Source: Streptantibioticus rubrisoli
GTDB lineage: Bacteria; Actinomycetota; Actinomycetes; Streptomycetales; Streptomycetaceae
Direction: 5' to 3'
Length of the DNA: 64,000 nucleotides
Assembly (NCBI RefSeq): GCF_024436055.1
Contig: NZ_JANFNH010000021.1
Location: forward strand, 35,465-99,464
This document shows positions 11,445-63,929 of this stretch, piece by piece. Every line of letters begins with the position of its first letter. Position 1 is the first letter of the stretch. The notes under the pieces were generated by a model. The model saw only the letters and a program-made list of their open reading frames with translations, was not told the origin of the DNA and did no database searches. Position numbers and translations under genes: made by a program.

Positions 11445-13226
11445 CTGTCGACCGCCATCCTCACCGGTCCGCCGGTCGCGGACTCGACCGTGGAGGACGA
11501 TCTGCGCCTCCTCGGCTTCGACGTGGTCGCCGCGGACAGCCCGGCCGACCTGGTCGGCCACCTCAAGGCCGCGCCCGCCGGGGCCAGGGTCGCCGTGGTC
11601 GACCGCCGCTTCACCGGGCACCGGCACGCGCTGCGGCTCGCCCTGACCGACCCGCGCTTCCCGGCGGGCGCCGTCCCCGGCGCCCTCGGGGTCACCGCCG
11701 CCGCCCGCGACCAGCTGTGCCTGGCCGCCGACCGCCAGTCCGGCCCCGACGAGCTGGCCGCCGCGCTGGACCGGGCGGGCATCCCGGTACACCGCCCGGA
11801 ACTGGGCGTCCTGACCGCCGCCGTGCCCACCGACGAGGCGGCCCGCGCCCGGGCCCGTAGCGCGGTCGCCGCCGTCGATGACGAGGAGGTGCGGCTGCGC
11901 ACCGCCGTCAAGTCGCGCGACGGCTTTTTCACGACGTTCTTCATCAGCCCGTACTCGCGCTACCTGGCCCGCTGGTGCGCCCGGCGCGGCCTCACCCCGA
12001 ACCAGGTGACCACCGCCTCGCTGCTGGTCGCGCTGATCGCCGCCGGTTGCGCGGCCACCGGAACCCGCGCCGGGTTCGTGGCGGCGGGCGTGCTGCTGCT
12101 GGCCTCGTTCTTCCTGGACTGCACCGACGGCCAGCTGGCCCGGTACTCCCTGCAGTTCTCCACCCTCGGCGCCTGGCTGGACGCCACCTTCGACCGGGCC
12201 AAGGAGTACGCGTACTACGCGGGCCTGGCGATCGGCGCGGCCAGGATGGGCGACGACGTGTGGGCACTGGCGCTCGGCGCGATGGTGCTGCAGACCTGCC
12301 GCCATGTCGTGGACTTCTCCTTCAACGAGGCCGCCCACTTCGAAGACGGGGCGGCCGCCAACACCAGCCCCACCGCGGCGCTCTCCGACCGGCTGGACGG
12401 CGTCGGCTGGACGGTGTGGGTGCGCCGGATGATCGTGCTGCCGATCGGCGAGCGCTGGGCGCTGATCGCCGTGCTGACCGCGGCCACCACCCCGCGCATC
12501 GTCTTCTACGCCCTGCTCGCCGGTTGCTCCTTCGCCGCCTGCTACACCACCGCGGGCCGGGTACTGCGCTCGGTGACCAGGAAGGCGCGGCGCACCGACC
12601 GCGCCGCGCATGCGCTGGCCGACCTGGCCGACTCCGGGCCGCTGGCGGAGCTGGCCTCGCGCGTCCTGCCGTCCGTCGCCGCGCCCGTGACCGCCGCCAC
12701 AGGTGCCGCCGCGGCGCTGGCGACCGCGCTGTTCGCCCCGTACGGCTCCTGGCTGCCGGTGGCCGGCGCGGGGGCGTACTGCCTGACCTCGGCGGTTGCG
12801 GTCGCGGCACCGCTGAAGGGCGCGCTCGACTGGCTCGTCCCGCCGATCCTGCGCGCCGCCGAGTACACCGTGATCCTGGCGCTCGCCGCGCGCTCCGGTG
12901 TGCCCGGCGCGCTTCCGGCGGCGTTCGGGCTGGTGGCGGCCGTCGCCTACCATCACTACGACACGGTGTACCGCATCCGCGGCGGCACCGGTGCGCCTCC
13001 ACGAGCCCTGGTCCGCGCGACCGGCGGCCACGAGGGCAGGCTGCTGGTGGTCACCGCGGCGGCAGCTCTGCTCGCGCACACCACAGCTTTGCCAACGGCA
13101 GCTTTGCCAACGGCGCTGGCGATCCTGGCCGGATACCTGGCGCTGGTGGTGCTCACCGAGTCCATCCGTTTCTGGGGCTCGGCCGGAGCACCCGCGGTAC
13201 ACGACGAAACAGGAGAACCCACATGA
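11445..13226 (+). CDS. DUF5941 / CDP-alcohol phosphatidyltransferase-like membrane protein, CTG start
   Basis: About 593 residues. Residues 1-150 form a soluble domain resembling a degenerate Rossmann or nucleotidyltransferase fold (AILTGPP at the start). Residues 160-400 are a membrane CDP-alcohol phosphatidyltransferase domain with the complete DxxDGxxAR-x8-GxxxDxxxD motif (DCTDGQLAR to LDATFD). The rest is a DUF5941-type hydrophobic region. Such enzymes move a phosphoalcohol from its CDP ester to another alcohol. Homology with the N-terminus points to CTG 11445: AGGGAG lies nine bases upstream, an in-frame TGA sits three codons before it, and the next possible start (GTG 11490) would remove the conserved beginning. 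First gene of the operon; ATGA overlap with the next gene. Confidence 0.75.
   Translation: MSTAILTGPPVADSTVEDDLRLLGFDVVAADSPADLVGHLKAAPAGARVAVVDRRFTGHRHALRLALTDPRFPAGAVPGALGVTAAARDQLCLAADRQSGPDELAAALDRAGIPVHRPELGVLTAAVPTDEAARARARSAVAAVDDEEVRLRTAVKSRDGFFTTFFISPYSRYLARWCARRGLTPNQVTTASLLVALIAAGCAATGTRAGFVAAGVLLLASFFLDCTDGQLARYSLQFSTLGAWLDATFDRAKEYAYYAGLAIGAARMGDDVWALALGAMVLQTCRHVVDFSFNEAAHFEDGAAANTSPTAALSDRLDGVGWTVWVRRMIVLPIGERWALIAVLTAATTPRIVFYALLAGCSFAACYTTAGRVLRSVTRKARRTDRAAHALADLADSGPLAELASRVLPSVAAPVTAATGAAAALATALFAPYGSWLPVAGAGAYCLTSAVAVAAPLKGALDWLVPPILRAAEYTVILALAARSGVPGALPAAFGLVAAVAYHHYDTVYRIRGGTGAPPRALVRATGGHEGRLLVVTAAAALLAHTTALPTAALPTALAILAGYLALVVLTESIRFWGSAGAPAVHDETGEPT
13084..13114. 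repeat. in-frame 15-bp tandem duplication
   Basis: AGCTTTGCCAACGGC occurs twice head to tail (13085-13099 and 13100-13114), adding a repeated Ala-Leu-Pro-Thr-Ala in a membrane segment of the DUF5941 protein without breaking the frame. Confidence 0.85.
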
Positions 13227-13960
13227 TCGGCCTCGTGCTGGCGGCCGGCGCCGGACGGCGTCTTCGCCCCTACACCGACACCCTGCCGAAGGCCCTGGTC
13301 CCCGTCGATGGCGACACCACCGTCCTCGACCTGACCCTGGGCAACTTCGCCGAGGTGGGGCTCACCGACGCGGCCGTCGTCATCGGCTACCGCGGCGAGG
13401 CCGTCGTCGAGCGCCAGGCGGCGCTGGAGAAGAAGTACGGCGTCAAGCTGCACCTGGTGCACAACGACAAGGCCGAGGAGTGGAACAACGCCTACTCCCT
13501 GTGGTGCGCCCGTGACGTGCTCACCGAGGGCGTGATCCTCGCCAACGGCGACACCGTCCACCCCGCCTCCGTGGAGCGCACCCTGCTGGCCGCCCGCGGC
13601 AACGGGCAGCAGATCATCCTGGCCCTCGACACGGTGAAGAAGCTCGCCGACGAGGAGATGAAGGTCGTCACCGCCGACGGCAAGGGTGTGCGGCGGATCA
13701 CCAAGCTGATGGACCCGGCCGAGGCCACCGGTGAGTACATCGGCGTCACCCTCATCGAGTCCCAGGCCGCCGCGGCGCTCGCGGACGCGCTGAAGGCCAC
13801 CTACGAGCGGGACCCGCAGCTGTACTACGAGGACGGCTACCAGGAACTGGTCAACCGCGGCTTCCAGGTCGACACCGCCGCCATCGGCGAGGTCTCCTGG
13901 GTCGAGATCGACAACCACGACGACCTCAAGCGGGCCCGGGAGATCGCGTGCCTGTACTGA
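13223..13960 (+). CDS. sugar-phosphate/polyol-phosphate nucleotidyltransferase
   Basis: A 245-residue nucleotidyltransferase (NTP_transferase fold) that should activate a phosphorylated alcohol with CTP or another NTP. Motifs: LAAGAGRRLRPYT for nucleotide binding, DTLPKALVPVDG, and the metal-binding VILANGDTVHP. It resembles the cytidylyltransferases acting on inositol-1-phosphate or phosphocholine more than the long glucose-1-phosphate enzymes, which is why I favour a CDP product. Start ATG 13223 overlaps the previous stop by four bases, and the end overlaps the next start by 13 bases. Substrate is inferred from neighbours, not shown. Confidence 0.8.
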   Translation: MIGLVLAAGAGRRLRPYTDTLPKALVPVDGDTTVLDLTLGNFAEVGLTDAAVVIGYRGEAVVERQAALEKKYGVKLHLVHNDKAEEWNNAYSLWCARDVLTEGVILANGDTVHPASVERTLLAARGNGQQIILALDTVKKLADEEMKVVTADGKGVRRITKLMDPAEATGEYIGVTLIESQAAAALADALKATYERDPQLYYEDGYQELVNRGFQVDTAAIGEVSWVEIDNHDDLKRAREIACLY

Positions 13961-15009
13961 CCCGGCTGATCCCCTCGCCGGTCGTCGTCGACATCACCGC
14001 CGGAGCGCTGGACGACCTGGCCGGTCTCCTCGCCGACCAGCGCGTCTCCAGCTCGGGCAAGCTCGCGTTCGCCATCAGCGGCGGCTCCGGCCAGAAGCTG
14101 CGCGAGCGGCTCGCCCCCGAACTGCCGGGCGCCGACTGGTACTCGGTGGCGGGCGGCTCGCTGGACTCCGCCGTCGAGCTGGCCGACGCGATGCGCGGCA
14201 AGCGCTACGACGCGGTGGTCGGGCTCGGCGGCGGCAAGGTGATCGACGTGGCCAAGTACGCGGCCGCGCGGGTCGGGCTGCCCATGGTGGCGGTGGCGAC
14301 CAACTTGTCGCACGACGGCATCTGCTCGCCGGTGTCCACGCTGGACAACGACAACGGCCGCGGCTCCTACGGCGTCCCGCAGCCGATCGCGCTCGTCATC
14401 GACCTGGACGTGATCCGGCAGACCCCGGCCCGCTTCGTGCGCTCCGGCATCGGCGACGCGGTCTCCAACCTGTCCGCCATCGCGGACTGGGAGCTGTCGC
14501 ACCGCGAGACCGGTGAGCCCATCGACGGTCTGGCCGCCGCGATGGCCCGCAGCGCGGGTGAGTCGGTGCTGCGGCACCCGGGCACCATCCGCGACGACGA
14601 CTTCCTGACCACGCTCGCCGAGGGCCTGGTGCTCTCCGGCATCGCCATGGCGATCAGCGGTGACACCCGCCCGTCGTCCGGCGCCTGCCACGAGATCAGC
14701 CACGCCTTCGACCTGCTGTATCCGCAGCGGGCCGCCTCGCACGGTGAACAGGTGGGCATGGGCGCGGCGTTCGCGATGTACCTGCGCGGTGCCGCCGATG
14801 AGGCCCGCAACATCGCCGACGTGCTGCGGCGGCACAGCCTGCCGGTGCTTCCCGGCGAAATCGGCTTCTCCGACGCCGAGTTCGTGACCGCGGTGGAGTA
14901 CGCGCCGCAGACCCGCCCCGGGCGGTACACGATCCTGGAACACCTGGACCTCGACACCGACGCGATCAGGGATGCGTACGCGGACTATGTCAAAGCCATC
15001 GGTAGCTGA
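13948..15009 (+). CDS. iron-containing alcohol dehydrogenase, sn-glycerol-1-phosphate dehydrogenase-like
   Basis: A 353-residue NAD(P)-dependent, metal-containing dehydrogenase of the family that includes archaeal and AraM-type glycerol-1-phosphate dehydrogenases. GLGGGKVIDVAKY binds the cofactor. Metal ligands are likely the Asp of NLSHDGICSP and the His residues of SGACHEISHAFD and SHGEQVGMG. Reduction of dihydroxyacetone phosphate to sn-glycerol-1-phosphate would feed the neighbouring nucleotidyltransferase. GTG 13948 lies inside the preceding gene. A related polyol-phosphate substrate is possible. Confidence 0.78.
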   Translation: MPVLTRLIPSPVVVDITAGALDDLAGLLADQRVSSSGKLAFAISGGSGQKLRERLAPELPGADWYSVAGGSLDSAVELADAMRGKRYDAVVGLGGGKVIDVAKYAAARVGLPMVAVATNLSHDGICSPVSTLDNDNGRGSYGVPQPIALVIDLDVIRQTPARFVRSGIGDAVSNLSAIADWELSHRETGEPIDGLAAAMARSAGESVLRHPGTIRDDDFLTTLAEGLVLSGIAMAISGDTRPSSGACHEISHAFDLLYPQRAASHGEQVGMGAAFAMYLRGAADEARNIADVLRRHSLPVLPGEIGFSDAEFVTAVEYAPQTRPGRYTILEHLDLDTDAIRDAYADYVKAIGS

Positions 15010-15766
15010 ATTGCGGCCGGTCGTCCACCCCGCCGGGGTGAAGGACCGGCGCAGCGGTGAGCACTGGGCCGGGCGCGTCTACATGCGGGAGATCTCGCTG
15101 CGGGTGGACCGGCACCTGGTGAACACCCGGGTCACGCCCAACCAGCTGACCTACCTGATGACCGTCTTCGGCGTCCTGGCCTGCCCGGCCCTGCTGGTGC
15201 CGGGCATCGCGGGCGCCGTGCTCGGCGTGCTGATGGTCCAGCTGTACCTGCTGCTGGACTGCGTCGACGGTGAAGTCGCCCGCTGGAAGCAGCAGTTCTC
15301 GCTCGGCGGTGTGTACCTGGACCGGGTCGGCGCCTATCTGACCGACGCCGCGGTCCTGGTCGGCTTCGGCCTGCGCGCCGCCGACCTGTGGGGGCCCGGG
15401 CGGATCGACTGGCTGTGGGCCTTCCTCGGCACCCTCGCCGCACTGGGCGCGATCCTGATCAAGGCCGAGACCGACCTCGTCGGCGTCGCCCGGCACCAAG
15501 GCGGGCTGCCACCGGTCAAGGAGGCGGCGTCCGAGCCGCGTTCGTCCGGTCTGGCGCTGGCCCGCAGGGCCGCCGCCGCCTTGAAGTTCCACCGGCTGGT
15601 GCTGGGGATCGAGGCGTCGTTGCTGATCCTGGTGCTGGCGGTCGCGGACACGGTCAGGGGTGACCTGTTCTTCTCGCGGCTGGGCGTCGCCGTGCTCGCC
15701 GCCATCGCGGTGCTGCAGACCGTGCTGCACCTGGTGTCCATCCTGGCCTCTAGCAGGTTGCGATGA
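14987..15766 (+). CDS. CDP-alcohol phosphatidyltransferase-like membrane protein lacking the last Asp
   Basis: A 259-residue membrane protein with about six hydrophobic segments. The CDP-alcohol transferase motif begins normally (DCVDGEVAR, eight residues, then GVYLD), but the fourth position, normally the catalytic-base Asp, is Ala (DRVGA). The N-terminus has VKDRRSGEHWAGRVYMREIS, and RVTPNQLTYL is shared with the first gene's transferase domain. Start ATG 14987 (MSKPSVAELRPVVHP) overlaps the dehydrogenase gene by 23 bases; an ATG at 14972 is less likely. It may be an altered-mechanism transferase or a partner of the complete enzyme encoded at 11445-13226. Confidence 0.75.
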   Translation: MSKPSVAELRPVVHPAGVKDRRSGEHWAGRVYMREISLRVDRHLVNTRVTPNQLTYLMTVFGVLACPALLVPGIAGAVLGVLMVQLYLLLDCVDGEVARWKQQFSLGGVYLDRVGAYLTDAAVLVGFGLRAADLWGPGRIDWLWAFLGTLAALGAILIKAETDLVGVARHQGGLPPVKEAASEPRSSGLALARRAAAALKFHRLVLGIEASLLILVLAVADTVRGDLFFSRLGVAVLAAIAVLQTVLHLVSILASSRLR

Positions 15767-16653
15767 CGGCCCGCCGGGTGAGGAAGCTCGGCGCGGTGGT
15801 GCTCACCATGGGCAACCGCCCCGCGGAGCTGCGCGCTCTGCTGGACTCCGTCGCCAAGCAGCGCGGCGAGCCGGTAGAGGTGGTCGTGGTCGGCAACGGA
15901 TCACCGCTGCCCGAACTCCCCGACGGCGTAAGGACCGTTGAGCTGCCGGAGAACCTGGGCATCCCGGCCGGACGCAACGTGGGCATCGAGGCGTTCGGTC
16001 CCGGCGGGTGCGAGGTAGACGCGATCCTGTTCCTGGACGACGACGGCTTCCTGCCCAACGACGACACCGCGGAACTGGTCCGGGAGGCGTTCAACGCCGA
16101 CCCGCGGCTGGGCATCATCAGCTTCCGCATCACCGACCCGGCCACCGGCACCACGCAGCGCCGCCACGTACCCCGGTTGCGCGCCTCGGACCCGATGCGC
16201 TCCTCCCGGGTCACCACCTTCCTGGGTGGCGCCAGCGCGGCGCGCACCGAGGTGTTCCAGCAGGTCGGCGGGCTGCCCGACGAGTTCTTCTACGCGCACG
16301 AGGAGACCGACCTGGCCTGGCGTGCGCTGGACGCGGGCTGGATGGTCGACTACCGGTCGGACATGGTGCTGGAGCATCCGGCGACCGCGCCGAGCCGCCA
16401 TGCCGTCTACCACCGGATGGTGGCCCGCAACCGGGTCTGGCTGGCCCGGCGGAACCTTCCGGCTCCCCTGGTGCCGCTCTATCTGGGAACCTGGATCCTG
16501 CTCACCATCGCCCGGCGCCCGTCCCGGCAGGCGCTACGGGCCTGGGTGGGCGGCTTCAAGGAGGGGTGGACCACTCCCTGTGGCCCGCGTCACACAATGA
16601 AGTGGCGTACGGTTTGGCGGCTGACCCGACTGGGACGACCACCCGTCATCTGA
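15763..16653 (+). CDS. family 2 glycosyltransferase
   Basis: GT-A fold glycosyltransferase of 296 residues using a nucleotide sugar, probably at the cytoplasmic membrane face. KLGAVVLTMGNRPAELRALL opens the fold, ILFLDDDGFLPND contains the metal-binding acidic motif, and FFYAHEETDLAWRALDAGW contains the ED-like catalytic region. The C-terminal 80 residues include a short hydrophobic segment (LYLGTWILLTI). It overlaps the previous gene by ATGA, so it belongs to the same operon and probably decorates its product before export. Confidence 0.85.
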   Translation: MTARRVRKLGAVVLTMGNRPAELRALLDSVAKQRGEPVEVVVVGNGSPLPELPDGVRTVELPENLGIPAGRNVGIEAFGPGGCEVDAILFLDDDGFLPNDDTAELVREAFNADPRLGIISFRITDPATGTTQRRHVPRLRASDPMRSSRVTTFLGGASAARTEVFQQVGGLPDEFFYAHEETDLAWRALDAGWMVDYRSDMVLEHPATAPSRHAVYHRMVARNRVWLARRNLPAPLVPLYLGTWILLTIARRPSRQALRAWVGGFKEGWTTPCGPRHTMKWRTVWRLTRLGRPPVI

Positions 16654-16723
16654 CAAGCTCGGATGGAAACGCATCGGGCACGGACCGGGATCCCGCCCCG
16701 GCCCGTGCACCATGAGGACGAAA

Positions 16724-17662
16724 GTGTCAACTGTGAGCGATACCACGCATGAGGGCGCGGTCGCCGTGAGCACCCCGCCGGTGACGGCCGCTGACGGCGG
16801 ACTGTCACCGGCCGAGCTGGCGGCCAAGTACGGGCTGTCGGTGAGCGGCGCCCGGCCGAGCCTGCCGGAGTACGTACGCCAGTTGTGGGGACGTCGGCAC
16901 TTCATCGTGGCGTACTCCATCGCCCGGCTGAGCGCCCAGTACACCAAGGCGCGGCTCGGCCAGATCTGGAACGTGATGACGCCGCTGCTCAACGCGGCCG
17001 TCTACTACCTGATCTTCGGCGTGCTGCTGCAGACCGACCATGGCATCGACAACTTCATCGCCTATCTGGTCACCGGCGTCTTCGTCTTCAACTTCACCCA
17101 GTCCACGGTGCTCGCCGGCACCCGGGCGATCTCCGACAACCTCGGGCTGATCCGCGCGCTGCACTTCCCGCGGGCCGCGCTGCCGATCTCGGTCACCCTC
17201 ATCCAGCTCCAGCAACTGCTGTACTCGATGATCGTGCTGGTCTCCATCGTGCTGATGACCGGTGAGGTCCCGCAGTTCTCCTGGTTCCTGCTGGTACCCG
17301 CGCTGGTGCTGCAGTCCGTCTTCAACATCGGTGTCGCGCTGTACGTGGCCCGGCTGGGCAGCAAGGTCACCGACCTCGCCCAGCTGATGCCGTTCCTGCT
17401 GCGCACCTGGATGTACGTCTCCGGCGTGTTCTACGCGATCGACAAGGTCGTCAAGCATCTGCCGACCGCGGCCGGCGTGTTGCTCGACCTGAACCCGGCC
17501 GCCGTGTACATCGACCTGATCCGCTTCGCGCTGATCGACAGCTTCACCTCCGCGCAACTGCCGCACCACGTGTGGATCACCGCCGTGGCATGGGCGGTTG
17601 TCGCCGGTATCGGGGGCTTCGTGTTCTTCTGGAAGGCTGAGGAGCAGTACGGTCGTGGCTGA
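16724..17662 (+). CDS. ABC-2 type polysaccharide export permease (Wzm/TagG-like)
   Basis: About 312 residues with a cytoplasmic N-terminal tail and six membrane helices. The helix pattern and the segment RLGQIWNVMTPLLNAAVYYL are typical of the ABC2 exporters for O-antigen and wall teichoic acid. It pairs with the next gene's ATPase to move a lipid-linked glycan or phosphopolymer across the membrane. I prefer GTG 16724 (VSTVSDTTHEG) with GAGGA five bases upstream; ATG 16712 is possible. It follows the glycosyltransferase by 70 bp. Confidence 0.85.
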   Translation: MSTVSDTTHEGAVAVSTPPVTAADGGLSPAELAAKYGLSVSGARPSLPEYVRQLWGRRHFIVAYSIARLSAQYTKARLGQIWNVMTPLLNAAVYYLIFGVLLQTDHGIDNFIAYLVTGVFVFNFTQSTVLAGTRAISDNLGLIRALHFPRAALPISVTLIQLQQLLYSMIVLVSIVLMTGEVPQFSWFLLVPALVLQSVFNIGVALYVARLGSKVTDLAQLMPFLLRTWMYVSGVFYAIDKVVKHLPTAAGVLLDLNPAAVYIDLIRFALIDSFTSAQLPHHVWITAVAWAVVAGIGGFVFFWKAEEQYGRG

Positions 17663-18440
17663 GCAGCAGCAGGGGACCGAGCGGGTTCCCACGGTGATCG
17701 TGGACGATCTGCACATCGTCTACCGGGTGCATGGCGCGGGTAGTGGCAAGGGCAGTGCCACGGCGGCGTTGAGCCGGATCGTACAGCGGAAGACCTCGCC
17801 GAACGTGCGTGAGGTGCACGCGGTGCGCGGGGTGAGTTTCGTGGCGTACCGGGGTGAGGCGGTCGGGCTGATCGGTTCGAACGGTTCGGGTAAGTCGACG
17901 ATGCTGCGGGCGATCGCGGGGTTGCTGCCGCCGGAGCGGGGTCGGGTCTATACCGATGGGCAGCCGTCGCTGCTGGGTGTTAACGCGGCGTTGATGAATG
18001 ACCTGACGGGGGAGCGGAACGTCATCCTGGGCGGCTTGGCCATGGGGATGAGTAATTCCGAGATTCGTGAGAAGTATCAGGACATTGTGGACTTCTCGGG
18101 GATCAATGAGAAGGGTGATTTCATTTCGCTGCCGATGCGGACGTATTCGTCGGGGATGGCGGCGCGGTTGCGGTTTTCGATCGCGGCGGCCAAGCAGCAC
18201 GATGTGTTGATGATCGATGAGGCGCTGGCGACGGGGGACCGGGCGTTTCAGAGGCGGTCGGAGGAGCGGATCCGGGAGTTGCGGGCGGAGGCCGGGACGG
18301 TGTTCCTGGTGAGTCACAACAACAAGTCGATCCGGGACACCTGTGATCGGGTGTTGTGGCTGGAGAAGGGCGAGCTGTGGATGGACGGCCCGACCGAAGA
18401 GGTGCTTGAGGCGTACGAGGAGCACACCGGCGGCAAATAG
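17655..18440 (+). CDS. ABC transporter ATPase, polysaccharide export type (Wzt/TagH-like)
   Basis: ATPase partner of the preceding permease, 261 residues. It has Walker A GSNGSGKST near residue 78, signature YSSGMAARLRFS, Walker B DVLMIDEALATGD and the switch His in FLVSHNN, an arrangement characteristic of teichoic-acid and O-antigen exporters. GTG 17655 overlaps the permease stop by eight bases. After about 17740 codon use departs from its neighbours: third positions favour G (and T) over C, as in TCG, GTG, GCG and TTG. The same pattern is seen in ispG at 27174, so it need not mean recent transfer. Confidence 0.88.
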   Translation: MAEQQQGTERVPTVIVDDLHIVYRVHGAGSGKGSATAALSRIVQRKTSPNVREVHAVRGVSFVAYRGEAVGLIGSNGSGKSTMLRAIAGLLPPERGRVYTDGQPSLLGVNAALMNDLTGERNVILGGLAMGMSNSEIREKYQDIVDFSGINEKGDFISLPMRTYSSGMAARLRFSIAAAKQHDVLMIDEALATGDRAFQRRSEERIRELRAEAGTVFLVSHNNKSIRDTCDRVLWLEKGELWMDGPTEEVLEAYEEHTGGK

Positions 18441-59832: not shown

Positions 59833-61101
59833 ATGGACTCCGCCTTCACAGTTCTCGCCACTCCTGGACAGCTCACCGCTCACAAGGTCTACGAAGTCCT
59901 CCGTGACCACAGTGGGGGTCCTCTGGAGTTTGACCGGATTCTCACGGAATTGGGCGACGAACAGATTGCCAGCAGCACCCTCGCGCAAGAGCAGTTGCTT
60001 GAAGCGTTGTTGAGAGATGACAGATTGCGTTCGGCGCGGGGTTATCGACAGCGCTTTTCAATGTCCGGGAGGTCCATTCGCCTCCGCCCTCCCGGCAACC
60101 GAGCGGAGCTGGCCATTGAACAAGAAAATGAGCAAGTCAAAGAGCAGCTGCTGAAGCAATTGCGAGAAGTTCCTCCGGAAGTATTCGAGCACATCGTGGC
60201 TGATTTGTTCACTGCGATGAGATACGAAGATGTAAAGGTCACTAGAAGATCTAAGGATGGTGGCGTTGACGTCCGAGCCACTCTCGTTGCAGGCGCCGTT
60301 ATGACAGTACCTACCGCGATTCAGGTGAAGCGCTGGTCGAAACCGGTAACAGTCAAGGAGGTTAGAGAACTCAGGGGCACGCTGAGGGCCGGCACGCAAG
60401 GGATTATCGTGACCACTGGAAAGTACACTAAGGATGCTCCCAAGGAGGCCTTGGATGATGCTCTCACTCCAATTCACCTGATCGATGGCCGGTTGTTGAC
60501 TGATTTGCTAACTGAGCACGGCATTGGCGTCCAGGCGTCGCGTCTTTCCCTCCTTTCCCTCGATTTGGAGGCATTGGCAACTATTACAGGCAAGGCTGGT
60601 AGCCCCATTCAAGGAAGCTCCTCCCGGCCGCCTCAAAATGCTCAGCCGCGCTACTACATCGAGAAGATGCCATCGGATCGAGGCAAGGATCTTTTGGACT
60701 GCATCGTTTCTATGACGGACCTTGCCGACGGTCAGCCGAGCTGGGACGACTACGTCGCAAAATTCCAGGAGCGGTTTCCTGCTATTACGCGCCCCGATGA
60801 GGCCCGTCGACGGTCGCGTGTCCTGGTTTCCCTGGGTCTAGTGGATGTTGAGAATGACCACATGAACTTGACCCTGGCTGGTCGAAAATTGCTGGAATAC
60901 CCAGATTCAAGCTTCCTCCTCGAGCTATTTCTAAGCCGTATCGTGGGTGCCCGGGAAATCGAGGAACTATCCAGGTCCCTCACAAGGACGGATCTGCGCA
61001 AAAAACTCCAGGATGGTTCCCTGGCGGGGCTTACCCCTACTCAAGCGACACTGGTCGAGAAGTGGCTCAGTCACATAAAGAGGCCTGCCGCATCCCGATA
61101 G
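59833..61101 (+). CDS. Mrr-like type IV restriction endonuclease
   Basis: A 422-residue nuclease with a PD-(D/E)xK core: EVFEHIVADLFTAMRYEDVK, Asp in KDGGVDVRATL and IQVKRWSKP provide the D-x-QxK active site of Mrr_cat, with GIIVTTGKYTKDA after it. The N-terminal 100 residues are a winged-helix-like recognition domain, and a C-terminal region of about 150 residues has no clear match. Mrr enzymes cut modified DNA. GC content is visibly lower than in the core genome. It lies next to DNA-phosphorothioation genes. ATG 59833 has no good ribosome site; the start may lie elsewhere. Confidence 0.82.
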   Translation: MDSAFTVLATPGQLTAHKVYEVLRDHSGGPLEFDRILTELGDEQIASSTLAQEQLLEALLRDDRLRSARGYRQRFSMSGRSIRLRPPGNRAELAIEQENEQVKEQLLKQLREVPPEVFEHIVADLFTAMRYEDVKVTRRSKDGGVDVRATLVAGAVMTVPTAIQVKRWSKPVTVKEVRELRGTLRAGTQGIIVTTGKYTKDAPKEALDDALTPIHLIDGRLLTDLLTEHGIGVQASRLSLLSLDLEALATITGKAGSPIQGSSSRPPQNAQPRYYIEKMPSDRGKDLLDCIVSMTDLADGQPSWDDYVAKFQERFPAITRPDEARRRSRVLVSLGLVDVENDHMNLTLAGRKLLEYPDSSFLLELFLSRIVGAREIEELSRSLTRTDLRKKLQDGSLAGLTPTQATLVEKWLSHIKRPAASR

Positions 61102-61332
61102 CTCCCGCGGTGGCAGACGCGGCGGCGAGCGTCAAGTGCTACACCCCTCGCGTGCGCTCATAGCCAGGCTACGTTTACCGTCGCAAGGACCGGCCAGCGT
61201 GCGTAACAACCGTCCAACTGCCAGACAGCCGCCTATTGGCACTTTGGGAGCATCTTTGTCGTTGCGTGGGTGGGCCGGTCCAACGTCTTCTACCCTGTTC
61301 ATGGTGTCGTTACCTGGACGCAGGTGTCTGTT

Positions 61333-62769
61333 ATGCAGCAAATCTGGGGTAGTGAGCGTCGGCGGACGGCGATTGGGCGGATGACGCTGTCGGTGCCCGC
61401 GCGTCAGGCGCTGGCGGACGGCCAGTTGGTACCTGAGCGGACGATCCTCGACTACGGCTGTGGCCGTGGTGACGATGTCAGAGCTTTGCAGCAACTGGAC
61501 TGCCAGGTGACGGGGTGGGATCCGTATTACCGCTCTGACACACAACTGGGCGCCAACGACGTGGTGTTGCTGACGTATGTGTTGAACGTGATCGAGGATC
61601 CGGTAGAGCGTCGGCAGACCTTGGAGCAGGCGTGGGAGCTGGCCTCGACGCTTTTGGTGGTCTCAGCCCGCCTGACATGGGAGAAGTCAAAGGTCCACGG
61701 TCAGGAGTTCGGTGACGGCCTGCTGACGAGCCTGCAGACGTTTCAGCATCTATATGCCGCGAGTGAGCTGCGGGAGTACGTGGAGCAGGTGACCGGCGCG
61801 CGGGTGGTGGCGGCTGCGCCAGGGGTCGTCTACGCGTTCCGGGACGAGGGCGCCCGGCTGAGCTATCTGGCGCAGCGTGTGATCCCAGATGCCGAGTGGC
61901 TTGCTTCCGAGGACACTGCCTCGGCGGTGAGTGCGGTGGCGGACTTCTTCGAGCGTAGGGGACGTCCGCCGCGGATTGAGGAGATGCCGCGGACCGTTGC
62001 GCAGCTGTTGGCTCATCTGCGCCCCGGTGAGGTCAAGCGTCTGGTGCGGGATGGTGCTGATCCTGAGCGGGCCGCTGCGGGGGCTAAGCGATCGACGCTG
62101 AACACGTTGCTCTACCTGGCGGTGGAGCTCTTCAACGGCCGTGGACCGTTTGGCAGTCTGCCAGTGGGGCTACAGCAGGACGTACGTACGTTCTTCAGCT
62201 CCTACAAGGAGGCGTGCCAGCGGGCTGACCGGCTGTTGTTCAAGCTCCGCGACGACGGATATGTGCGCAATGCCATGAACGCCTCCGTTGCAGGCAAGGT
62301 GACACCGACGGCGCTGTATGTGCATCGACGTACGCTGGAGCGGATCCCGACGGTTTTGCGCTTGTACGAGCACTGCGCTTCGATTGCTGCCGGTCGCCCG
62401 GAGCAGTGGACAGTGGCAAAGCTCAAGCACCAAGGGCGAGCGGTGTCGTGGCTGGACTACCCGGACTTTGACAAAGACCCGCATCCGCGGATTCGATCTT
62501 CCTACATGGTGGACCTGCAGACGTTTCAGGCATCCCATCTCTCCTATGAGAGTTCGGCGAACCGGCCGTTGCTGCACCGCAAGCACGAGTTTCTGGCACC
62601 GGATGATCCGGATGTGCCGCGATATCGCCGGTTGACCGAATCTGAGACGCGGGCGGGATTGTATGAACGGCCGCACCTGATCGGGACCGAGAACGGCTGG
62701 GAGGCCGAGCTCGTCAGGTGCGGCCGGGAGCTGCGCGGGCACCGCCTGGTGCGTCGCACCGAGGCGTAG
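61333..62769 (+). CDS. DNA phosphorothioation-associated putative methyltransferase
   Basis: A 478-residue protein matching the uncharacterised methyltransferase that accompanies dnd (phosphorothioate) operons. N-terminal ERRRTAIGRMTLSVPARQAL is typical, the SAM motif is ILDYGCGRGDDVRALQQL, and the long C-terminal part has GRAVSWLDYPDFDKDPHPRI and HLSYESSANRPLLHRKHEFL. ATG 61333 (MQQIWGSERRR) is taken as start; an ATG at 61381 falls inside the conserved N-terminus. It is convergent with dndA, 5 bp apart. Its role in phosphorothioation is unproven. Confidence 0.85.
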   Translation: MQQIWGSERRRTAIGRMTLSVPARQALADGQLVPERTILDYGCGRGDDVRALQQLDCQVTGWDPYYRSDTQLGANDVVLLTYVLNVIEDPVERRQTLEQAWELASTLLVVSARLTWEKSKVHGQEFGDGLLTSLQTFQHLYAASELREYVEQVTGARVVAAAPGVVYAFRDEGARLSYLAQRVIPDAEWLASEDTASAVSAVADFFERRGRPPRIEEMPRTVAQLLAHLRPGEVKRLVRDGADPERAAAGAKRSTLNTLLYLAVELFNGRGPFGSLPVGLQQDVRTFFSSYKEACQRADRLLFKLRDDGYVRNAMNASVAGKVTPTALYVHRRTLERIPTVLRLYEHCASIAAGRPEQWTVAKLKHQGRAVSWLDYPDFDKDPHPRIRSSYMVDLQTFQASHLSYESSANRPLLHRKHEFLAPDDPDVPRYRRLTESETRAGLYERPHLIGTENGWEAELVRCGRELRGHRLVRRTEA

Positions 62770-62774
62770 GCTGG

Positions 62775-63929
62775 TCAGCCTTCCTGAGGTTGCATGCGGG
62801 CGATGGTCTCGGCAATGGGCAGCGGGTCGAAGTCCCTTGCCTGCGGAGGGAACCAGGAAAACCGCAGCCCATTTGCGGCTACGTCGTCGGGAAGGCCCAT
62901 CGCCTGGAGCACGTGGCTAGGGGTGTAGGAGGCGCTGGTGCACGCAGACCCTGTTGCAATGGCAACCTGGTCCTTGAGCCGGACGATCAGTGCTTCAGCG
63001 TTGAGCTGGTCGAAGGAGACGTTGAGGATGTGCGGCACGGTGTGTGCCTGATCTCCGTTGAGGCGGAAGCGTGTCTTGCCGAGTGCTTCCAAGATCTGCT
63101 CGCGCATCGCTCGCGCGTCGCGTTCCCAGTTGTCCCGGCTCTCGTGGAAGATCTTCGCGGCCTCATAAAGGCCCATGATCAGAGGGACGGGGAGGGTGCC
63201 GGGGCGCAGCTTCCTCTCCTGGCCGCCGCCGAACATGATCGGTTCCAGCGGCACCTTCTCCCAGCCGCGACGTCGTGTAATGAGCGCTCCGACCCCCTTC
63301 GGCGCGCCGATCTTGTGACCGCTGATGCTGATCAGGTCGATTGGCGCGGACAGGTCATCGGCGATCTTGCCGTATCCCTGAGCGGCGTCCACGTGCAGGT
63401 AAGTAGGCGTGGCCCGCAGACGTTCGGCCAACTCGGCGACCGGTTGGATGACGCCGGTCTCGTTGTTGACGTGCATCAGAGACACCGCGAGCGTGTCGGG
63501 GCGCAGGCGCTCTATCACCTGCTCGACGGTGATACGGCCGGACGGGCCCGGCTCAAGAAAGTCCACGGCGAAGCCGCGGTTCTCCGCGAGGTGCAACAGG
63601 GGCTCCAGGACGGCCTTGTGCTCGATCGCCGACGTGATGATGTGCTTCCGGCCGGTGCGCTCACCGAACGGGGCGAGGCCAAGCAGGGCGATGTTGTTGG
63701 ACTCCGTGGCCCCGCTGGTGAAGATCACTTCCTCGGTCTTGGCGCCCACGGTGCTCGCGAGGAAGGAACGGGCTTGCTGGACCGCCTTCTTGGCACGGGC
63801 ACCGTACTCGTGAGTGCGGCTGCCGGCGTTGCCGAAGTCTTCGGTCATCCAGTGCAGGACGACATCAGCGACCCTGTCGGGTTCCAGAACTCGGCTTGGC
63901 CCGGTGACCAGCAGCGATGGATAGAGCAA
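62775..63929 (-). CDS. dndA: DndA-like cysteine desulfurase, abnormal N-terminus
   Basis: PLP-dependent cysteine desulfurase (384 residues from TTG 63929) supplying sulfur for DNA phosphorothioate modification. FTSGATESNNIALLGLAPF, the His of TSAIEHKAVLEPL, the PLP lysine in ISISGHKIGAPKG and the active Cys loop GSACTSASYTP are intact. The first 15 residues (LYPSLLVTGPSRV) do not match the conserved beginning (YLD-x-NATT-like) of this family. No ATG or GTG start exists before an in-frame TGA, and no ribosome site is seen. The 5' end may have been lost when a mobile element inserted at about 63890-63955. DndBCDE would be expected to the right. Confidence 0.8.
   Translation of the reverse strand: MLYPSLLVTGPSRVLEPDRVADVVLHWMTEDFGNAGSRTHEYGARAKKAVQQARSFLASTVGAKTEEVIFTSGATESNNIALLGLAPFGERTGRKHIITSAIEHKAVLEPLLHLAENRGFAVDFLEPGPSGRITVEQVIERLRPDTLAVSLMHVNNETGVIQPVAELAERLRATPTYLHVDAAQGYGKIADDLSAPIDLISISGHKIGAPKGVGALITRRRGWEKVPLEPIMFGGGQERKLRPGTLPVPLIMGLYEAAKIFHESRDNWERDARAMREQILEALGKTRFRLNGDQAHTVPHILNVSFDQLNAEALIVRLKDQVAIATGSACTSASYTPSHVLQAMGLPDDVAANGLRFSWFPPQARDFDPLPIAETIARMQPQEG

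Follow-up and report, generated by a model that had tools for sequence, protein, structure and literature searches.

We analysed a 64,000-nucleotide stretch of the Streptantibioticus rubrisoli genome (contig NZ_JANFNH010000021.1; hereafter the window), in which seven genes at 11445-18440 form a putative operon for an exported envelope molecule. The genome carrying the window is 7.26 Mb. All seven open reading frames (ORFs) were confirmed; they lie on the + strand in a single direction and mostly overlap, and in gene order their products match PF01066 and PF19365, PF00483, PF13685, PF01066, PF00535, PF01061 and PF00005, each above its cut-off. The seven tightly coupled genes of the original prediction were thus borne out. 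The genes, and the parts of the first one, are listed below.

11445..13226, + strand: CDPOH1, a cytidine diphosphate (CDP)-alcohol transferase with DUF5941 (PF01066 and PF19365; putative CTG start at 11445)
About 11448-11873, + strand: nucleotidyltransferase-like fold at the N-terminus of CDPOH1 (AlphaFold2 (AF2) model, fold matches)
About 11910-12590, + strand: CDP-alcohol phosphotransferase unit of CDPOH1 (PF01066, AF2 model, fold matches)
12117..12194, + strand: complete CDPOH1 motif DxxDGxxAR...GxxxDxxxD (from sequence)
12591-13217, + strand: DUF5941, predicted degenerate second CDP-alcohol-transferase unit (PF19365; catalytic motif absent)
13223..13960, + strand: NT, predicted cytidine triphosphate (CTP)-dependent cytidylyltransferase, a relative of LicC, PntC and IPCT (PF00483; 1jyk, 4jd0, 6pd1)
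13948..15009, + strand: FeADH, a glycerol-1-phosphate dehydrogenase (EgsA/AraM) homologue (PF13685; NF002022; 4rgq, 3ce9)
14987..15766, + strand: CDPOH2, of the CDP-alcohol transferase family, in which Ala takes the place of the fourth motif Asp (PF01066, 28.7 bits)
15763..16653, + strand: GT2 glycosyltransferase (PF00535)
16712..17662, + strand: Wzm/TagG-like ABC-2 permease (PF01061; galactan export permease model)
17655..18440, + strand: Wzt/TagH-like ATPase (PF00005; TagH model NF010066; galactan exporter ATPase model)

The first standard start in the CDPOH1 frame is a GTG at 11490 (frame 11490-13226). Three CDPOH1 homologues carry 15 extra upstream residues reaching the in-frame CTG at 11445, which sits 9 bases past AGGGAG, and this extension backs the start originally proposed there.

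Named genomes were scanned with NT, yielding 80 Streptomycetaceae loci; these are the 80 best of 572 confirmed loci, and fractions of them are not frequencies. The operon was present at 76 of them; 70 of the 76 were complete with seven genes and the other six were each short of one, a degree of completeness indicating that the operon is more than a chance assembly. With gene starts projected by alignment from those of the window, the 13-base overlap of NT and FeADH was kept in 88/88 loci and the 23-base overlap of FeADH and CDPOH2 in 84/84. Across the phylum, DUF5941 was found in 19 of 396 sampled actinobacterial genomes, and in five distant actinobacteria (G317, G086, G386, G338 and G183) the fetched stretches each held five to seven operon genes. 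CDPOH2 matches at two loci, L023 and L027, are cross-matches to CDPOH1. We also observed in genome G204 a three-gene unit (L144:9378-11855) of NT (71%), FeADH (52%) and a CDP-alcohol transferase that retains the fourth Asp, with no other operon gene adjoining. Two distant actinobacteria have sulfotransferase genes in or adjoining the operon (L024:7622-8653 and 11449-12573; L025:12719-13627), where the exported product may be sulfated. We take SCO6752 onward to be the same operon in Streptomyces coelicolor; SCO6751 is the neighbouring zinc exporter. In open-licence PubMed Central (PMC), three papers mention SCO6751-6756, and by their titles none deals with the operon.

FeADH scored 244.4 bits against the sn-glycerol-1-phosphate (G1P) dehydrogenase model NF002022 (cut-off 413) and 85 bits against the glycerol dehydrogenase model, and it matched the solved structures 4rgq, a G1P dehydrogenase (E 1.8e-40), and 3ce9 (E 1.8e-41). 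Its alignment with 4rgq, 5fb3 and 3ce9, archaeal G1P dehydrogenase included, runs over the RPxSGxxH region and the Asp/His/His metal-ligand regions. Among FeADH homologues RPxSGxxHxxxHxxD is kept in 88/88 and GxG[DE]xxSN in 86/88, with further conserved stretches at [SAT][HN]DGxxSP, GDxxSN and HG[EA]. Near named relatives include those of Streptomyces silvisoli (98% identity) and Streptantibioticus ferralitis (96%), and AroB is the sole other PF13685 match in the window's genome. FeADH is predicted by homology to reduce dihydroxyacetone phosphate (DHAP) to G1P. The earlier remark that G1P dehydrogenases are rare in bacteria fails for this family, since 99 of the 101 Streptomycetaceae genomes examined encode the enzyme. 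Yokobori et al. had already counted an Actinobacteria group, and a sequence from Streptomyces, among the bacterial G1P dehydrogenases (PMC5059525; this and the other papers are cited from excerpts).

For NT, the top solved relative is LicC (1jyk, E 2.2e-13), followed by another nucleotidyltransferase (7whr, 4.1e-8), the inositol-1-phosphate cytidylyltransferase 4jd0 (1.7e-7; PMC12275187) and PntC (6pd1, 3.3e-6). We predict that NT activates G1P with CTP to give CDP-sn-1-glycerol. At three distant loci (L147, L149 and L150), which lie in other actinobacteria and have a PntC-like NT, FeADH is replaced: NT and a CDP-alcohol transferase stand beside a PhnW-like aminotransferase (239-312 bits; PhnW cut-off 361). 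These clusters probably serve phosphonate tailoring, and their arrangement fits the logic described for such tailoring (PMC6697681). Since NT and the transferase recur with an aminotransferase in place of FeADH, the logic of the module seems to be that a small phosphate is made, activated with CTP and transferred.

The AF2 model of CDPOH1 has a predicted local distance difference test (pLDDT) score of 86.9. The complete transferase motif is present in 26/26 alignment rows and in 83 of 85 CDPOH1-homologous ORFs, the remaining two being 180-residue pieces at contig ends. The catalytic motif is found in none of 22 alignment rows of DUF5941, and the predicted structure of this domain adopts the CDP-alcohol phosphotransferase fold, from which we predict a second, degenerate transferase unit; we met the domain in no paper of open-licence PMC. 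In CDPOH2 the fourth Asp of the motif (D4) is replaced by Ala or His in 84/84 homologues, and the protein may be a transferase relying on another base or may serve as a non-catalytic partner. Among the export proteins, the permease scored 61.5 bits against the galactan export permease model (cut-off 380), and the ATPase 171.6 bits against TagH (NF010066, cut-off 320) and 156.7 bits against the galactan exporter ATPase model (cut-off 400). The third-position guanine-plus-cytosine (GC) fraction of the ATPase gene (17655-18440) is 0.84, compared with 0.89-0.96 in its operon neighbours. Homology thus backs the protein types first proposed for the operon, namely a G1P-dehydrogenase-like enzyme, an activating nucleotidyltransferase (of LicC/PntC kind), CDP-alcohol transferases and a Wzm/Wzt-type exporter, the last apparently of teichoic-acid/galactan type.

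The connection to teichoic acids comes from TagF and TagD. We used thresholds of 100 bits for TagF (PF04464) and 97 bits for TagD, both set once the tables had been seen; at curated cut-offs TagD (TIGR01518) is in 8/396 genomes and PF04464 in 48/396. TagF of at least 100 bits was present in 15 of 19 actinobacterial genomes with NT versus 15 of 377 without (p 1e-15; 396 genomes), and with Streptomycetaceae removed in 3/7 versus 15/377 (p 0.003). TagF was also found in 16 of 17 FeADH-bearing Streptomycetaceae genomes examined, five of them hand-picked, the exception being G406, and the two of 101 Streptomycetaceae genomes without FeADH are without TagF and DUF5941 as well. The window's genome (G000) has two TagF-type genes (431 and 425 bits). 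In the 101 Streptomycetaceae genomes no TagD exceeded the cut-off of 165 bits (highest score 67), and its best match in the window's genome reached 32 bits, on a contig apart from both TagF contigs. With TagD below cut-off in 101/101, FeADH and NT form a two-enzyme candidate for the source of CDP-glycerol in this family. At the two TagF loci of the window's genome we found no CDP-glycerol source among the called genes, where the sole NT match is a sugar-nucleotidyltransferase-like gene (27%, L152); TagD at these loci was covered by the whole-genome search, not separately. Among 30 TagF genomes none combined NT with TagD (p 0.008, to which shared ancestry applies), while over all 396 their exclusivity is uninformative: with 19 and 16 genomes, about 0.8 carrying both would be expected.

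Several loci place these genes physically near TagF. In four of the 80 named loci, NT and FeADH form a pair ahead of rplU and obg with the rest of the operon missing, and all four stretches contain a TagF match, confirmed as PF04464 in L093, L098 and L110 (372-434 bits). Upstream of the pair lies rne in three of the four, the L098 stretch beginning past rne, and the pair is 74-80% identical to that of the window. In some Streptomyces the rne/rplU/obg site holds a second NT-FeADH pair (L093, L094, L098, L110 and L156). The same site in G334 (L155) has FeADH alone, with two TagF matches and a glycosyltransferase with a TarS linker. In G386 the operon region itself contains TagF (408 bits), in G396 and G422 a divergent TagF adjoins the operon (333 and 331 bits), and two LCP genes lie upstream of the operon in G183. 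L027 and L028 combine DUF5941 with TagGH-like genes and with genes matching PF04464 (25 and 384 bits), and their stretches show no FeADH match.

We judge the chance slightly better than even that the operon makes CDP-sn-1-glycerol from DHAP via G1P, likely for an exported glycerol-phosphate product of the teichoic-acid type. What had been proposed as an unknown exported molecule would thereby be narrowed to a product of this class. We infer all substrates and the stereochemistry of the pathway, in which FeADH would convert DHAP to G1P, and NT would join G1P with CTP to form CDP-sn-1-glycerol. CDPOH1, with its complete motif, would then pass glycerol phosphate from CDP-glycerol to an acceptor that is a lipid or linked to one, DUF5941 replacing the partner protomer of the usual CDP-alcohol transferase dimer, and CDPOH2, without the fourth Asp, could act as a non-catalytic partner or as a transferase with a different base. 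Glycosylation of the product would fall to GT2 and its flipping to Wzm/Wzt, and TagF polymerases, where encoded (here on other contigs), would share the same CDP-glycerol pool.

The sn-1 configuration is proposed because GpsA could supply ordinary glycerol-3-phosphate, and a dedicated dehydrogenase makes most sense for another product. In Bacillus, wall teichoic acid is built from CDP-glycerol of sn-3 configuration from TagD, and lipoteichoic acid is sn-1, derived from phosphatidylglycerol (PMC7086022). Together with this, further reports lead us to infer that FeADH and NT supply CDP-sn-1-glycerol: Cps7D, a TagF-like polymerase, accepted both CDP-glycerol enantiomers in vitro (PMC5974469), the polyglycerolphosphates of lipoteichoic and wall teichoic acid match closely in Streptomyces hygroscopicus, and no clear LtaS orthologue is present in actinobacteria (PMC3196553 for both). 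On the best reading, the product would be opposite in handedness to the wall teichoic acid of Bacillus, with TagD and perhaps LtaS bypassed. More tentatively, and with a chance somewhat short of even, streptomycetes and some other actinobacteria may build their teichoic acids from CDP-sn-1-glycerol, using a G1P dehydrogenase and a LicC-like cytidylyltransferase; the wall polymer would then mirror that of Bacillus and have lipoteichoic handedness, and wall- and lipid-linked polymer alike would come from a single cytoplasmic pathway that needs neither TagD nor LtaS. PlsY and PlsC are reported to take G1P too (PMC13400652), which could open a second route, into lipids, for the G1P of this pathway.

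A number of observations weigh against a CDP-sn-1-glycerol pathway for teichoic acids. The association of NT with TagF is inflated by shared ancestry, and both TagF genes of the window's genome lie on contigs other than that of the operon. TagF of at least 100 bits is missing from four of the 19 genomes with NT (G338, G086, G317, and G108, which has a match of 96.8 bits). No TagF match turned up in G045, which carries most of the operon, and FeADH occurs without TagF in G406, so the operon has no need of TagF. Conversely, 9 of 30 TagF genomes are without NT and TagD at the thresholds used, and other routes must therefore exist. The rne-obg pair of G455 has no TagF in the fetched 20 kb, the TagF genes of this genome being on other contigs. 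At the level of the proteins, FeADH is under the curated NCBIfam equivalog cut-off for G1P dehydrogenase (244.4 of 413 bits), and the exporter proteins are under those of their nearest NCBIfam models (TagH, 171.6 of 320 bits). The top NCBIfam model for NT is AglF, a sugar-1-phosphate uridylyltransferase (73 bits of 400), so homology does not settle the substrate of NT, and glycerol-1-phosphate was not converted to a product by CpgD, a COG1213 relative (PMC12275187). A C5 polyol phosphate may be the substrate instead of G1P.

Rather unlikely, in our estimate, is that the operon makes a short phosphodiester-linked glycolipid and no long polymer, with CDP-glycerol and a lipid alcohol as substrates, GT2 glycosylation, Wzm/Wzt flipping and TagF as an optional consumer elsewhere. 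The genomes with TagF in or beside the operon (G386, G396, G422) and the NT-FeADH pair near TagF at rne-obg speak against it, as does the CDPOH1 motif, which reads GAWLDATFD, without the Glu/His pair proposed for CHPT1 catalysis (PMC10182977).

The same architecture could also serve another CDP-polyol donor, if FeADH reduced a different ketose phosphate such as a pentulose phosphate. Teichoic acids with other polyols occur in actinobacteria, and the sub-cut-off score of FeADH would fit such a substrate, but its G1P dehydrogenase score is far above those of other family models and its active-site regions match. The polymer described in Streptomyces hygroscopicus is moreover a polyglycerolphosphate (PMC3196553), and we regard this alternative as quite improbable.

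NT and CDPOH1 resemble IPCT-DIPPS, and by that logic the product would be a solute like di-inositol-phosphate or diglycerol-phosphate. This is very unlikely given IPCT-DIPPS scores of 45-52 bits (cut-off 580) and the presence of a dedicated Wzm/Wzt exporter and GT2. Phosphonate tailoring was rejected: although distant NT relatives occur in such clusters, the seven operon proteins include no phosphonate gene product and neither phosphoenolpyruvate (PEP) mutase nor 2-aminoethylphosphonate (AEP) aminotransferase, the rest of the genome not having been searched for these.

Finally, a role in hopanoid or isoprenoid metabolism that joins G1P to an isoprenoid, in line with the isoprenoid-linked product of the original prediction, has barely any chance of being right and was rejected: hpnC and hpnD are in the stretch at 69 of the 76 named operon loci and idi at 71, and at L021, a distant locus, a 40% match to the idi of the window lies about 5 kb away from the operon, but the stretches around the operon in the five distant genomes, and those fetched from the Streptomycetaceae G396 and G422, have no hpnC or hpnD match, and the G1P prenyltransferase PcrB (PF01884) is in none of 41 Streptomycetaceae, the window's genome included.

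Elsewhere in the window, positions 59833-63929 have a low GC content (59-64% versus about 71%) and contain one methyltransferase-like and one cysteine-desulfurase-like ORF, as read from the sequence; this stretch may be a genomic island.

Compared with known systems, the proposed CDP-sn-1-glycerol pathway shares with the Bacillus wall teichoic acid route (TagD-TagB/F-TagGH) an expected CDP-glycerol-type donor, TagF-type polymerases nearby in several lineages and a TagGH-like exporter. It differs in having no TagD above cut-off, for which the dehydrogenase and LicC-like NT would substitute, in its additional CDP-alcohol transferases and in the opposite predicted glycerol configuration. Like LicC/PntC tailoring with phosphocholine or 2-aminoethylphosphonate, it would combine a locally made small phosphate, a COG1213-type cytidylyltransferase and transfer to an envelope molecule, whereas its head enzyme is a G1P dehydrogenase homologue and no kinase, PEP mutase or aminotransferase family is represented in the seven proteins. 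A G1P dehydrogenase homologue is also found in the AraM-PcrB heptaprenylglyceryl phosphate pathway of Bacillus; in contrast to that pathway, PcrB is missing from the 41 Streptomycetaceae and G1P is expected to meet CTP. CDPOH1 resembles IPCT-DIPPS and PIP synthase in its fold, motif and N-terminal nucleotidyltransferase-like domain, but this domain is short and diverged, and the degenerate DUF5941 unit follows the catalytic one. The order of a catalytic and then a degenerate unit is that of eukaryotic CHPT1/CEPT1, whose structural similarity to the whole CDPOH1 model extends over both.

A 2026 study of Streptomyces synteny filed a region of araM, tagG, tagH, a CDP-alcohol transferase, GT2, NT and crtB under teichoic acid and noted NT duplication in 76 genomes; the excerpt contains no mechanism, no G1P or CDP-glycerol proposal and no comparison with TagD (PMC13118837). 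Searches of titles and abstract beginnings in open-licence PMC, one of them with narrow phrases, returned no proposal of CDP-sn-1-glycerol for wall polymers. New here are the NT-FeADH pair, recurrent and a candidate for CDP-glycerol supply, the lack of any TagD above cut-off, the operon outside hopanoid loci, the predicted fold of DUF5941 and the second transferase without D4.

Taken together, a CDP-sn-1-glycerol pathway, if true, would explain how Streptomyces and its relatives do without TagD and would account for the near-universal G1P dehydrogenase homologue in Streptomycetaceae, while DUF5941 gains a predicted fold. It would also represent a bacterial use of G1P outside ether lipids, and a wall polymer of reversed handedness would matter for GlpQ-type hydrolases, phage receptors and immune recognition.

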